Of a DNA stretch of 64,000 nucleotides, positions 24,283 to 42,383 are shown in pieces (position 1 is the first letter of the stretch; every line of letters starts with the position of its first letter). This stretch comes from Tautonia sociabilis. GTDB lineage: Bacteria > Planctomycetota > Planctomycetia > Isosphaerales > Isosphaeraceae. A program made the position numbers and the translations under genes. The notes beneath the pieces were generated by a model. That model saw nothing but the letters and a program-made list of their open reading frames with translations, made no database searches and was not told where the DNA came from. The stretch lies in assembly GCF_003977685.1 (NCBI RefSeq), contig NZ_RYZH01000021.1, forward strand, positions 1 through 64,000, written 5' to 3'.

Positions 24283-24972
24283 TCACCCCACGACAAGACC
24301 GTCCCGGAGGCGGATCTCCCGGTCGGCCTCGGCGGCGACCTCGGCGCTGTGGGTGACAATCACCAGGGTGACTCCACGATCGGCCCGGAGCCGGGAGAGG
24401 AGGTCGAGGATCTCGCGCTGGGAGGCGGAGTCGAGGTTGCCGGTGGGCTCGTCGGCCAGGAGCAGAGACGGCCCGTTGGCCAGGGCCCGGGCGATGGCCA
24501 CGCGCTGGCGCTCTCCGATGGAGAGTCGGCGAGGCGGGTGCCCGGCCCGGTGCGAGAGCCCCACCTCCTCGAGCAGGCGGCGGGCCCGGCCGGCGCGATC
24601 GCCGACCGGGATGCCGGCGGCGAACATGGGAACCTGGACGTTCTCGAGCGCGGTGAGGGTCGGGATGAGATGAAACGCCTGAAAGACGAAGCCGACCTCG
24701 GAGGCGCGATAGGAGTCGAGATCGAGGTCCGAGAGCGGCCGGCCTCGGAAGACGACCTCGCCGGCCGAGGGGCGGTCGAGGCCCCCGAGCAGGTGAAGCA
24801 GCGTGCTCTTGCCGCAGCCGGAAGGGCCGGTGATGGCCATGAACTCGCCGGGAGCGACGGCGATCGAGACCCCGCGGAGGGCTCGAACATCGCCGTCGGG
24901 GTAGGTCTTGACCAGCCCCTCGCCCAGGAGCAGGGGGGGGATCTCGGTCGGTTCGGATCGACGATCACTCAT
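24283..24972 (-). CDS. ABC transporter ATP-binding protein (MacB/LolD-like)
   Basis: A 229-residue ATPase. Walker A GPSGCGKST is at residues 49-57, the Q-loop in FVFQAF near 98, the signature LSIGE at 150-154, and Walker B LLLAD with Glu175 followed by PTGNLDS. This is the LolD/MacB/DevA class, which powers FtsX-like permeases that expel lipids, peptides or antibiotics. Its start overlaps the permease stop by eight bases. No periplasmic adaptor is encoded next to it. As the last gene of the compact PKS operon it probably exports the product (inference). Confidence 0.9.
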   Translation of the reverse strand: MSDRRSEPTEIPPLLLGEGLVKTYPDGDVRALRGVSIAVAPGEFMAITGPSGCGKSTLLHLLGGLDRPSAGEVVFRGRPLSDLDLDSYRASEVGFVFQAFHLIPTLTALENVQVPMFAAGIPVGDRAGRARRLLEEVGLSHRAGHPPRRLSIGERQRVAIARALANGPSLLLADEPTGNLDSASQREILDLLSRLRADRGVTLVIVTHSAEVAAEADREIRLRDGLVVG

Positions 24973-40500: not shown

Positions 40501-42383
40501 TCGTACTGCTCGGCCTCGCCAAGCGAGACGAGGGGGGAGCCGGCCCCTCCGACTCGATCCACGCCCTTGCTTGCCGCCCGGAGCCTCCCGACGTTTAGAC
40601 GCTCCAGCTCCTCCCGGATGGCCTCGGCGGACGCGCCGGCCTGGAGAAGCCGTCGGCGCTCGGCAGCGAATTGCTCGGTGAAGGGGGAGGGGACGGCGCG
40701 GACCTCGTGCCCCGGACCGGTGGGCAGGAGAACCGTCTCCCGGCAGCGCAATGCCTCGGCCTGGAACCGGGGGGCGATCGCGCCGCAATCGACCGCCTCC
40801 CTCGTGAACAGGTACGCCGTCCCCACAAGCACGCCGACCTTCACCCCGAGGTCGGCCAGCGGAGAGGCCAGCGCCGCCACCGCGGACGCCGACCTCGCGT
40901 CGTGCACTCCCCCGGCGAACAGGAGATGGATCTCGGCCGGCTCGGCGACGGTCCCGCCGTCGATCGCCTCCAGGACCGTCGAGACCGCCTGTTCCCACAG
41001 GACCAGGCTCGACCTCGGCCCGACGTGCCCCCCGCACTCTCGGCCCTCCAGCACGAAGCGCCGGGCGCCATCCCGGAGGTATCGGCCGAGCAGGCCGGGC
41101 GACGGCGCGTGCAAGAACGTGCGAATGCCGATCTGTTCGAGCGTCTCCGCCTGATCCGGTCGGCCTCCGGCAATGAGGGCGAACGGAGGACGGACGGCCC
41201 GGATCGCTTCGAGTTGCTCGGCCCTCAGCGATGGGTCGACGAAGCCGAGGACGCCGACGCCCCAGGGAAGATCGCCCAGCCTGCTTGCCGTCTCGGAGAG
41301 CAGCGCGGCGGCCTCGGGCCCTCGGAGCATGGCCAGGGCGAGCATCGGCAGGGCGCCGCCGTCGGCCACCGCCGAAGCGAACGCGGCCGAGTCGCTCACT
41401 CGGGTCATCGGCCCCTGGACGACCGGGTACCGAGTGCCCAGCGACCGGGCCATCGGCGATCCCGGCGCGAGCGGCTGGGTGGCGATCGCCAGCGATCGGC
41501 CCCGGTCGATCGCCTCCTCGACCGCGCGGACGATGCCGCCCACGGTAACGAAGCGCCGGGCCATCGTCGCGGCGAAGGCGGCATCCTGGCCGATCGGCCG
41601 GGCCTGCCCGGCCCCCCATCCCACCAGCTCGGCGACCGCCCGGGTCCAGGCCGCTCCGCCGAGTTCGGCGGCCTCGCGCAGCCGGGCGATTGCCGTCGAT
41701 CCCGGCAGGACATCGACCCGGATGGAAGGGCCTTCCTGGGGACCGATCGCCGAGGTTTCGCCGCCGTCGAGGCGGGTGAGGCGGTCACGGTCGCCGGCCG
41801 GCAGCGGCAGCTCGCGGGCCAGGAGCACCGCGCCATCGAGCACCACGCCAGAGGCCCCCGTCGCCACGCAGGCCGCCGCCGAATGGGGGCCGATCCCCCC
41901 CCGAACCCAGACCGGGGGGCCTCCAGGGGCATCAGCCAGCACCCCCTGAAGGAGGACGAACGACGACTCGTCGCCGCACGGCCCCCCGGCCTCGAGCCCC
42001 GAGACGATCACGCCGTCGGCGCCGGCCTCTCGGGCTGCGGCGGCCGACCAACGATCCGGCACCTCCGCCAGGGCGATTCGGCCTCGACGCCGGATCCGGC
42101 CGATCGCCGCCGCCCAGTCCGTCCGGCGATCCCCCCGGCAGGCCACAACCGCCAGCCGATCCGGCCACGGACCGTCGTCGATCCGATCGGAGGCCATCAC
42201 CGCCCCGAACGGTCGGTCGGCCTGCGAAGCCAGGCGAGCCGACGCTCGCCGAGCGGCCTCGCCGCCGATCGACGAGAGGTCGAGCATCCCCAGCGCCCCC
42301 GCCCGACCGGCCGCCGCGATCAGCCCGGCTCCCTCCCCCCCTCCCGGGGCCACCACGAGCACGCGAGGCACGCAGATGTTCAT
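34593..42383 (-). CDS. Pfa-like polyketide synthase: NPD-NPD-KS-AT-ACP-KR
   Basis: A 2596-residue protein. The N-terminal 670 residues hold two consecutive nitropropane-dioxygenase/PfaD-like FMN barrels. The first has a degenerate EAGGPCG; the second an intact ECGGHVG, with FAGG and VGTAYLF. KS is at 678-1123 with active Cys872 (DAACGSSL), His1007 (EAHGTGT) and His1047. AT is near 1243-1531 with Ser1344 (GHSFGE). A low-complexity linker of about 350 residues contains the FQETMRSFLEVQ helix. A single ACP at about 1914-1985 has Ser1944 in LGIDSIKRVEIL, the signature of polyunsaturated-fatty-acid synthases. A ketoreductase follows from about 2298 (TGGARGI, FSSIAGRFGN, QSDYAAAN). The ATG at 42383 follows GGGAG; a GTG at 42413 is the alternative. 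Confidence 0.9.
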   Translation of the reverse strand: MNICVPRVLVVAPGGGEGAGLIAAAGRAGALGMLDLSSIGGEAARRASARLASQADRPFGAVMASDRIDDGPWPDRLAVVACRGDRRTDWAAAIGRIRRRGRIALAEVPDRWSAAAAREAGADGVIVSGLEAGGPCGDESSFVLLQGVLADAPGGPPVWVRGGIGPHSAAACVATGASGVVLDGAVLLARELPLPAGDRDRLTRLDGGETSAIGPQEGPSIRVDVLPGSTAIARLREAAELGGAAWTRAVAELVGWGAGQARPIGQDAAFAATMARRFVTVGGIVRAVEEAIDRGRSLAIATQPLAPGSPMARSLGTRYPVVQGPMTRVSDSAAFASAVADGGALPMLALAMLRGPEAAALLSETASRLGDLPWGVGVLGFVDPSLRAEQLEAIRAVRPPFALIAGGRPDQAETLEQIGIRTFLHAPSPGLLGRYLRDGARRFVLEGRECGGHVGPRSSLVLWEQAVSTVLEAIDGGTVAEPAEIHLLFAGGVHDARSASAVAALASPLADLGVKVGVLVGTAYLFTREAVDCGAIAPRFQAEALRCRETVLLPTGPGHEVRAVPSPFTEQFAAERRRLLQAGASAEAIREELERLNVGRLRAASKGVDRVGGAGSPLVSLGEAEQYERGLYMIGQVAALRDRITTIAELHAELSEGASARLERTEGTAVAPASSPSDVAIVGMSAIFPGAGDLRSFWGNTLKGVDAIVEIPPDRWDWRPYYDPDPRAPDKVVSRWGGFLPDVPFDPIRYGMPPSSLPSIEPAQLLVLEAVRAALDDAGYADRPFPRERTAVVLGMGGGAAQVAMGYAFRSYLPMLESVAPEAAREAIDRAFPLLPEWTEDSFPGFLLNVTAGRVANRFDLGGANYTVDAACGSSLAAASLAVRELETGAADMVILGGADTVQNPFTYLAFSKTHAFSPRGRCRPFDASADGIVISEGVGVVVLKRLADAERDGDRIYAVIKGIGSSSDGRARGLTAPNGEGQRLALARAYAKAGVRPSAVGYFEAHGTGTAVGDVVEVNALAQSLREDGAPPASAVVGSVKSMIGHTKCAAGLAGLINASLALYHRVLPPTIGVDEVNPKADLHDGPLRVNTRARPWLSPGDAPRLAGVSAFGFGGTNFHAVLESYEADPAPRPDPMDDWPAELFVWRSVDRSALIDRIDRLRTALDAGASPRLLDLSHALLDRVDPEADDAPTLAIVASSLDDLRGKLGSARERIARGDRSIDDPIGVHFADRPSFARDRVAVLFPGQGAQRLEMLGDLALAFEEVRLGFEAFDAALLEDGRPAIGPRVFPPTTLDDASRERARLALSETTAAQPAVGAASVGMLRLLSALGIEPGAAGGHSFGELVALHAAGAMDVGALARLSEARGRVMAEAAGPEPGAMAALLCDADRASSLIADLDGVVLANRNGPRQSVIAGSRDALNRAIDRARGAGVRCVDLPVGAAFHSPIVASAAGPMARLASEAIAFPPALPVFSNLDAAPHPADPAEIARRLGDHLAAPVRFDEMIEAMYASGVRVFIECGPGVTLSALVRSILADRPHLAASCDAPGRPGIPTLLSAVARLLVAGVAVTRPSRLTGRRGPRPIDLDRLPLGAPEYSPSTWLVNGSRARPIGGPEPARLGMAPELLGLPDRSSPAACPSVEQGRPGSNGGRFASAGGEADAPPAPHPAVANGHADGARNGHPPREPSRLATSSLPDSTRSPRANPSRIEPMSPRPGTEPGARNGHASALDRLRSQAFRDDAPTDDVARAFQSFQETMRSFLEVQKATMIAYLSGRPPAEPSEGARRSRIELDGNDVLDRFDRFDGGEVSPEAPPPGPVDLPLQESDERPKDRLRAGGSAPVPAEPVPTPTPTPAPAPSAGDREARTPRERPENRRPGPAGSNGQGSSSGVPIDSSLPTAESASPGASVSEVLLRIVRDRTGYPIEMLGMGLDLEADLGIDSIKRVEILGTLRDSVDGLGARSGSSLMDSLSRAKTLGEIVARVESALSAGGGAESGRPARGTAGRAEQERGAERLAPNGSSVGGGEHPDREGEAGSAGVDPIGDAQRPGPDRRPPAASPARLRRLVLEPIPADPPSIRSGLASGGAVLVTEDGRGVFRRLANALRAGGHPVEVVDPGWADLDSPSSISDRLDRVRASAPISGIIHVQPLGDAEPARIAPAARPGEALRRLFLLARASADDLERSSRCGGSCLIAATAMGGAFASVDSIGAPVVPAHGGVAGLVKTLAREWPAVRSRVVDLDPREPAEVLADRLAAEAFLDDRWAEVGYLAGRRIRLRAVERALDRRHSCIEIGEGDPILITGGARGISAAVARELARRWRPRLLLVGSSPVPEGEEDPETAGLVSAADLKKALHRRLARGGRHVSPADLQEAYLALVRSREIRSSLQAIRDAGAEAHYARADVRAPATLQAVISGWRERFGEPVGLIHGAGVIHDKLLREKSPESFDRVFGTKVGGAMNVIRSLRGDALKFAAFFSSIAGRFGNEGQSDYAAANDALNKLALWLDRRWPGRVLSANWGPWSGIGMVSDLEGHLGRRGLGMIDPPSGCSALLDELEYGRKGEVEVILSGDLGTLDGPLPAAGPIAEESPQGVAR

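Follow-up and report, generated by a model that had tools for sequence, protein, structure and literature searches.

The operon and its genes

The window analysed here, a stretch of 64,000 nucleotides from the planctomycete Tautonia sociabilis (family Isosphaeraceae), carries on its minus strand, at positions 24283-42383, nine open reading frames (ORFs) encoding two large synthase proteins (here called PKSA and PKSB), an acyl carrier protein (ACP), an alpha/beta-hydrolase, a short-chain dehydrogenase/reductase (SDR), two methyltransferases (MT1 and MT2), a permease and an ATP-binding cassette (ABC) ATPase. We propose that the synthase makes a long-chain acyl product, to be released, modified and exported by the other gene products. 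Each gene assignment is backed by Pfam matches. The operon lies on contig C47 of a genome assembly of 6.76 Mb (133 contigs, 94.79% complete), and the GC content of the window is 66-74% (2-kb steps). An earlier sequence-only reading had described nine genes on one strand with overlaps or gaps of less than 45 bases, and this is borne out: the genes overlap by 4 bp at PKSA/PKSB, PKSB/ACP and hydrolase/SDR and by 8 bp at permease/ATPase, and are separated by 14 bp (ACP/hydrolase), 23 bp (SDR/MT1), 33 bp (MT1/MT2) and 18 bp (MT2/permease).

PKSA (34593-42383; 2596 amino acids from the ATG at 42383, with an alternative GTG at 42413) begins with a degenerate NMO-like domain (GGPCG), followed by a flavin mononucleotide (FMN) enoyl-reductase-like NMO domain of the FabK/PfaD type (40419-41453; residues 321-665 of the 2606-amino acid ORF; GGHVG), a ketosynthase (KS; 39159-40352) with the Cys, His and His residues in place (VDAACGSS, EAHGTG, IGHTK), an acyltransferase (AT; 37782-38471; GHSFGE) whose AAFHS motif we take to signify a malonyl-type enzyme, an in-line ACP (36408-36665; a match to TIGR02813 at 1304-1385 and the motif LGIDSIKRVEIL) and a ketoreductase (KR; 34812-35480; SSIAGR, SDYAAAN). 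Pfam recognises NMO in two stretches, ketoacyl-synt, Acyl_transf_1 and KR. PKSB (29764-34596; 1610 amino acids) combines a second KS (33361-34572) with an AT (31930-32844; GHSSGE), a dehydratase (DH) region (30487-31479; PS-DH 27.0 against a gathering score of 23.7) and a phosphopantetheinyl transferase (PPTase; 29899-30123; ACPS 57.1 bits; VSIAH and GIDVE, with WCAKEALGK nearby).

The stand-alone ACP (29495-29767; 90 amino acids; PP-binding 26.9 versus 20.8 bits) carries the motif LGLASID; the sequence-only reading was right about a separate ACP gene, but the motif it quoted for it is the one in PKSA. As this gene is located between PKSB and the hydrolase, it is not a mere domain of PKSA, and the count of nine genes therefore stands. 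The hydrolase (28626-29480; 284 amino acids; Abhydrolase_1, GHSFG), which is found beside the synthase in most relatives, is the proposed release enzyme. It is followed by the SDR (27841-28629; 262 amino acids; adh_short, TGAAHGIG, YSASK), MT1 (26987-27817; 276 amino acids) and its paralogue MT2 (26105-26953; 282 amino acids; 40-42% identity), both Methyltransf_11 proteins. Across 26105-27817 both methyltransferases show an N-terminal, zinc-ribbon-like CxxC...CxxC stretch, seen in alignment, that is absent in some of the aligned relatives. A search of plasmid records with MT2 gave two weak matches. The presence of an exporter pair of its own was confirmed by Pfam, with a MacB_PCD/FtsX permease (24965-26086; 373 amino acids; LolC/MacB-like) and an ABC_tran ATPase (24283-24972; 229 amino acids; LolD/DevA-like).

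An inactive-looking second ketosynthase

In the KS of PKSB the catalytic Cys is replaced by Ser (VDAASAS). Because of this replacement only the KS of PKSA looks able to elongate, and the KS of PKSB is inactive-looking; the sequence-only reading had announced two iterative synthases, which is correct for the number of synthase proteins and overstated for the second. The closest relatives of the operon in a named collection of 80 loci belong to the Isosphaeraceae; we assigned 17 of these loci by hand to the Isosphaeraceae type, leaving 63 others, mostly from other phyla. Ser was found at all nine readable PKSB sites of the Isosphaeraceae type, the other eight loci lacking the site or being cut by contig ends, and the Cys was retained in 63 of the 63 other loci, in all of which the frame could be read.

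The domain is still less complete in several relatives. The PKSB of genome G041 shows Gly at the Cys position and lacks both His motifs as well, the PKSB match starts only at residue 386-392 at three loci (L123, L136, L146), and none of the KS motifs is seen at L118. PKSB has no KS match at all in ten regions belonging to other families of the class, where its match begins at residue 511-533; the acyltransferase motif GHSAG is kept in all ten, and a pattern scan found the PPTase motif in L214 only.

Conservation in Isosphaeraceae and Planctomycetia

A search of 45 genomes of the family gave some match at 1e-100 in 36 and a PKSB of the operon's type in 26, the window included (counted from listed identities). 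Regions from 23 of the 25 relatives counted with this PKSB type were compared. The order hydrolase-SDR-MT1-MT2-permease-ATPase is the same in 17 of them (in one, G010, the contig does not extend to PKSA), and the remaining six are cut off by contig ends and give no evidence against this order. The operon is also carried by the cultured relatives Singulisphaera acidiphila DSM 18658 (L110) and Aquisphaera insulae (L112). Since the order recurs in this way, with the only shorter cases truncated by contig ends, the arrangement is conserved and not due to chance. The full set was also present at all ten Isosphaeraceae-type loci of the named collection with at least 5 kb past PKSB; to judge by length, these loci lie on contigs already counted among the 17 family relatives, and the two counts are not independent. 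The parts of the operon, their motifs, their conserved linkage and the missing Cys can be read directly from the DNA.

In a sample of the class at least 78 of 118 genomes matched at 1e-100, many of them with other synthases. Outside the family, at least 13 genomes among the matches listed have a PKSB match without KS, and in all ten of the regions compared PKSA, PKSB, ACP, hydrolase, permease and ATPase occur together. L214 additionally contains two SDR matches and both methyltransferases; the other nine regions are without SDR or methyltransferase match. Three further regions of the class differ: L216 is of a phosphodiesterase type, L217 is of the two-KS type described below and has the ATPase match alone, and L222 (G042 contig 13) represents another synthase with KS, AT and KR and with no PKSB partner in the stretch fetched, similar single matches being found in several family genomes. 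At the level of the phylum, a search with the DH-PPTase part gave matches in four of 149 genomes including its own, the other three being weak and confined to the C-terminal third; this count is a lower bound, as diverged copies may escape the search.

A second, related cluster is present in four Isosphaeraceae genomes (G031, G032, G028, G011), three of which also carry the operon. None of the four has a methyltransferase match, and weak permease and ATPase matches occur further downstream in two. In G031 (contig C126; L134, 2219-24639) this cluster comprises a PKSB with Cys, a phosphodiesterase, and a glycosyltransferase beside hydrolase and SDR.

Downstream of the ATPase, beyond the nine genes, a tenth gene encodes a second SDR (23111-24286, minus strand, assigned by Pfam), which overlaps the ATPase gene by 4 bp. 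It follows the ATPase in only two of the 17 full-order relatives (G041 and G032; G003, which ends 0.3 kb past the ATPase, is uninformative), and it is therefore optional and not part of the core. Elsewhere in the window a 7TM hybrid histidine kinase is followed by divergent genes for an HlyD-type adaptor and an AcrB-type RND pump (46067-53882), and 55671-63984 contains nitrogen genes (glutamine synthetase, ammonium transporter and a GlnE-like adenylyltransferase).

Relatives in other phyla

Relatives in the named collection include Brocadia, Scalindua, Rhodovulum, Actibacterium, Ruegeria, Pseudomonas, Nitrospira, cyanobacteria and Chloroflexota; a two-KS relative of the synthase is found in anammox planctomycetes (Scalindua, Brocadia and Loosdrechtia; L116, L125, L138, L139). 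The 63 loci that are not of the operon's type share with it the PKSA-PKSB-ACP-hydrolase core and a PKSB composed of KS, AT, DH and PPTase. These uncharacterised two-KS pairs, possibly Type O of Shulse and Allen, differ from the operon in the retained Cys, in the frequent phosphodiesterase and in the rarity of the SDR-methyltransferase cassette and the exporter. Among the 50 of them where 5 kb or more were available past PKSB, the hydrolase was matched in 43, a PF01663 phosphodiesterase in 44 (its Pfam identity was confirmed in two loci) and the ACP, by tblastn, in 30, with ACP-like small frames visible in more than these 30. The SDR was matched in nine of the 50, MT1 in none, MT2 in four, and permease and ATPase in one each, both in the gammaproteobacterial locus L173. 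Because hydrolase, phosphodiesterase and ACP are common in these loci and SDR, methyltransferases and exporter are rare, the core is widespread across phyla, and both the cassette and the exporter seem to have been added in the planctomycete line, the direction of change being our reading of this distribution; the cassette would have been added in the Isosphaeraceae. In the planctomycete line the second KS is inactive-looking, truncated or missing, there is no phosphodiesterase, and the exporter pair is found. The sequence-only reading had stated that the cluster matches no nameable pathway; no characterised match was indeed found, yet the arrangement is not unique, its core being encoded in many phyla.

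Relationship to ArsA/ArsD and the secondary lipid synthases

The secondary lipid synthase class, as outlined in the relevant passages of Shulse and Allen (PMC3098273), comprises clusters like the one described here, in which an iterative KS, ACP and KR occur together with AT, DH, enoyl reductase and PPTase. The sequence-only reading had placed the operon in the Pfa/secondary lipid synthase class, and this assignment is upheld: PKSA scores above the cut-off of the PfaA-subfamily model TIGR02813 (1041.1 versus 1010.1 bits) when taken as a whole protein, no separate stretch in the genome exceeding it, and the PPTase is of the kind given for Types M-T. The motifs hShxH and x(G/D)xP are listed for these types, and hShxH is not given for Types A-L in the part of that study dealing with the PPTases (PMC3098273); PKSB shows both, as VSIAH and TGRP. 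The operon is a reshaped form of a mostly uncharacterised type of secondary lipid synthase.

Within this class, the nearest CHARACTERISED family is the ArsA/ArsD fatty acid synthase of phenolic lipids, and not the Pfa or enediyne clusters proposed for comparison by the sequence-only reading. A search of plasmid records with PKSA gave type I synthases from Beijerinckia and Methylosinus that adjoin genes annotated as 3-oxoacyl-ACP synthase III C-terminal domain and PPTase superfamily, which we read as a type III polyketide synthase (PKS) and an ArsD-like protein. PKSA and these ArsA-like synthases are collinear, also in the N-terminal oxidoreductase (41% over 99-1983 and 40% over 5-2573 for the Beijerinckia and Methylosinus plasmids), and the C-terminal half of PKSB matches the ArsD-like PPTase protein of Beijerinckia (33%, 2e-68), which itself contains PS-DH and ACPS. 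All of these comparisons were made with the Beijerinckia and Methylosinus homologues, not with the Azotobacter sequences. In a tree of 67 KS domains the PKSA KS falls in a clade with the ArsA-like pair (99/96) and the PKSB KS in another (98/94); the placement of three reference rows, which are on long branches, is unsure. In the type listing of Shulse and Allen, Beijerinckia indica appears as Type P, the phenolic lipid type (PMC3098273), and ArsA is described, in the passage concerned, as making C23-C25 fatty acids for alkylresorcinols, with ArsD as the PPTase (PMC4824345).

The two proteins of the ArsABCD system that find counterparts here are an ArsA-like fatty acid synthase, sharing the N-terminal FMN domain with PKSA, and an ArsD-like DH-PPTase half in PKSB. 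Unlike ArsA/ArsD, the operon is without a type III PKS, fuses an inactive-looking KS and an AT to the ArsD part, and adds an ACP, a hydrolase, an SDR and two methyltransferases. The ars-like cluster of Methylosinus resembles the operon in having adjacent ABC exporter genes; on the plasmid of Methylosinus sp. C49 (L202, 10171-24938) the ArsA-like synthase lies with a putative type III PKS, the PPTase protein, an ABC permease, an ATPase, an adaptor and TolC.

Proposed function and alternative explanations

From the anatomy of the operon and the conserved linkage of its genes we infer a system that makes, modifies, releases and exports a lipid; this extends to the catalytic steps, the chain length, the position that is methylated and what the exporter carries. 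The ACPs would be activated by the PPTase end of PKSB, and KS and AT of PKSA would extend the chain with malonyl units, each cycle being reduced by the KR of PKSA, the DH of PKSB and the FMN enoyl reductase of PKSA. The KS of PKSB would no longer condense and might, where kept, be a structural relic or a chain-length partner. The chain may then move to the stand-alone ACP and be released by the hydrolase, SDR and the two methyltransferases may tailor the head or a retained keto or hydroxy group, and the LolC/MacB-like permease and LolD-like ATPase would lift the lipid from the inner membrane. We consider it probable, at roughly 60%, that a long acyl chain is built by an iterative type I synthase of the ArsA/ArsD type and then released, modified and exported by the other gene products, as is suggested among other things by hydrolase, permease and ATPase following the synthase in each of the ten KS-less regions of other families.

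Several observations weigh against this proposal. A type III PKS corresponding to ArsB/ArsC is encoded neither in the operon nor, over the PF00195 cut-off, anywhere in the genome (complete to the percentage given above; best score 23.2 versus 27 bits); the same search exceeded the cut-off in three of 14 control genomes. The host is therefore unlikely to make alkylresorcinols by the Azotobacter route. Searches against solved structures gave as best relatives of MT1 and MT2 a mixture of O-, N- and C-methyltransferases. There is no membrane-fusion or TolC gene within the operon, ATPase and permease score below the LolD, DevA and LolCE cut-offs, the exporter could serve other cargo, and at L173 a similar exporter pair stands beside such a synthase outside the planctomycetes. 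The genes would form a single transcript, for which scans for promoters and terminators gave no clear signal: no sigma-70-like promoter was detected, and the three terminator-like sites found, against 3.9 expected, were not above chance.

A Pfa-type polyunsaturated fatty acid (PUFA) synthase feeding hydrocarbons or membrane PUFA, for which the TIGR02813 match of PKSA speaks, appears unlikely. Isosphaeraceae are reported to contain a C31:9 hydrocarbon, and a literature search combining it with planctomycetes returned just the paper of Shulse and Allen. Olefin synthesis is there suggested, in the passage on the Type I synthase of deltaproteobacteria and one planctomycete, to be fed by this synthase (PMC3098273). 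PfaA-E (Types A/B) resembles the operon in its KS-AT-ACP-KR order and its PfaD-like enoyl reductase. It is characterised by tandem ACPs and a PfaC with KS, chain-length factor (CLF) and two DH domains, whereas PKSA has a single in-line ACP, PKSB is a KS-AT-DH-PPTase protein, and enoyl reductase and PPTase are fused to the synthase proteins; for the lack of tandem ACPs and of a KS-CLF-DH-DH protein we reject Pfa membership. Moreover, the PKSA KS groups with ArsA, two PUFA-like KS rows from Persicobacter and Azospirillum (labelled from domain layout, the records being unannotated) form a clade of their own, the PPTase has the hShxH motif of Types M-T and not of A-L, and no ole genes are found within the operon, ole genes elsewhere in the genome not having been searched. 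Enediyne synthases are single KS-AT-ACP-KR-DH-PPTase proteins encoded with an enediyne cassette. The operon could instead encode an iterative PKS that makes a diffusible polyketide of antibiotic type (enediyne- or polyene-like), the ABC pair then serving self-protection. This would fit the enediyne order of KS-AT-ACP-KR followed by DH and PPTase, and would also fit the tailoring methyltransferases and the exporter. We regard it as improbable: the enediyne synthase compared shares 36% with PKSA in the KS-AT part (405 bits, against 1430 for the ArsA-like protein of Methylosinus), its KS branches outside on a long branch, and the operon occurs in as many as 26 of the 45 family species. With the synthase split over two proteins, the enoyl reductase fused and no cassette genes in the operon, membership in the enediyne family is rejected.

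The two remaining alternatives concern the exporter. The chain could be an envelope lipid that a DevCA-like pair deposits outside, in a planctomycete analogue of the heterocyst glycolipid pathway. Both systems combine a secondary lipid synthase and an SDR with a MacB/DevC-type permease and an ATPase, and the related second cluster at L134 has its glycosyltransferase beside hydrolase and SDR; the operon itself, however, lacks a DevB-like protein and a glycosyltransferase, HglE was not among the sequences compared, and its ATPase remains below the DevA cut-off (TIGR02982; 169.2 versus 295.8). On this score and the absence of an HlyD-type gene from the operon, membership in DevBCA is rejected, and we find a heterocyst-like function doubtful. 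It is also conceivable that two units share one transcript, the synthase making one lipid and a Lol-like pair handling lipoproteins or other cargo. Among the exporter models LolD and LolCE score best, and the ATPase family is generic, with 64 matches in the genome; both cut-offs are missed (LolD 224.3 versus 307.75, LolC/E 68.0 versus 362.45), so that membership in LolCDE is rejected. Against such a division also stands that the exporter pair stays beside PKSA, ACP and hydrolase in the ten KS-less regions, nine of them without SDR or methyltransferase match, and we give it little credence.

The open-access literature, to which the search was confined for the most part, provided neither a characterised product for this arrangement nor any description of the arrangement itself, of the inactive-looking KS or of the linked exporter; a closely matching, chemically characterised cluster, which the sequence-only reading had named as a possible refutation, was likewise not found there. 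In Paludisphaera borealis antiSMASH predicted type I PKS clusters whose nearest homologues are in Singulisphaera acidiphila, Solibacter usitatus and Geobacter daltonii, and the pertinent section gives no product (PMC5352709). According to the passage on this topic in a 2025 review, a single study to date has targeted a predicted planctomycete cluster, namely a type III PKS (PMC12078418).

Implications for planctomycete lipids

If the proposed release, modification and export of a synthase-made lipid is true, many planctomycetes would share a dedicated and so far undescribed pathway for a lipid destined for export. Their phylum has unusual envelopes, and few natural products are known from it. 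The operon offers a concrete gene set for deletion or expression. Second KS domains that are active, Cys-less, cut short or missing occur side by side, which would amount to a natural experiment on the purpose of this domain. More tentatively, and with less than even odds in our estimation, the Planctomycetia may have long kept a secretion pathway for an unseen class of long-chain lipids, methylated in the Isosphaeraceae and made by a reduced, single-KS line of ArsA/ArsD synthases, in which the second KS, active in other phyla, would have become Cys-less, then cut and finally absent while acyltransferase, ACP, hydrolase and exporter were kept.

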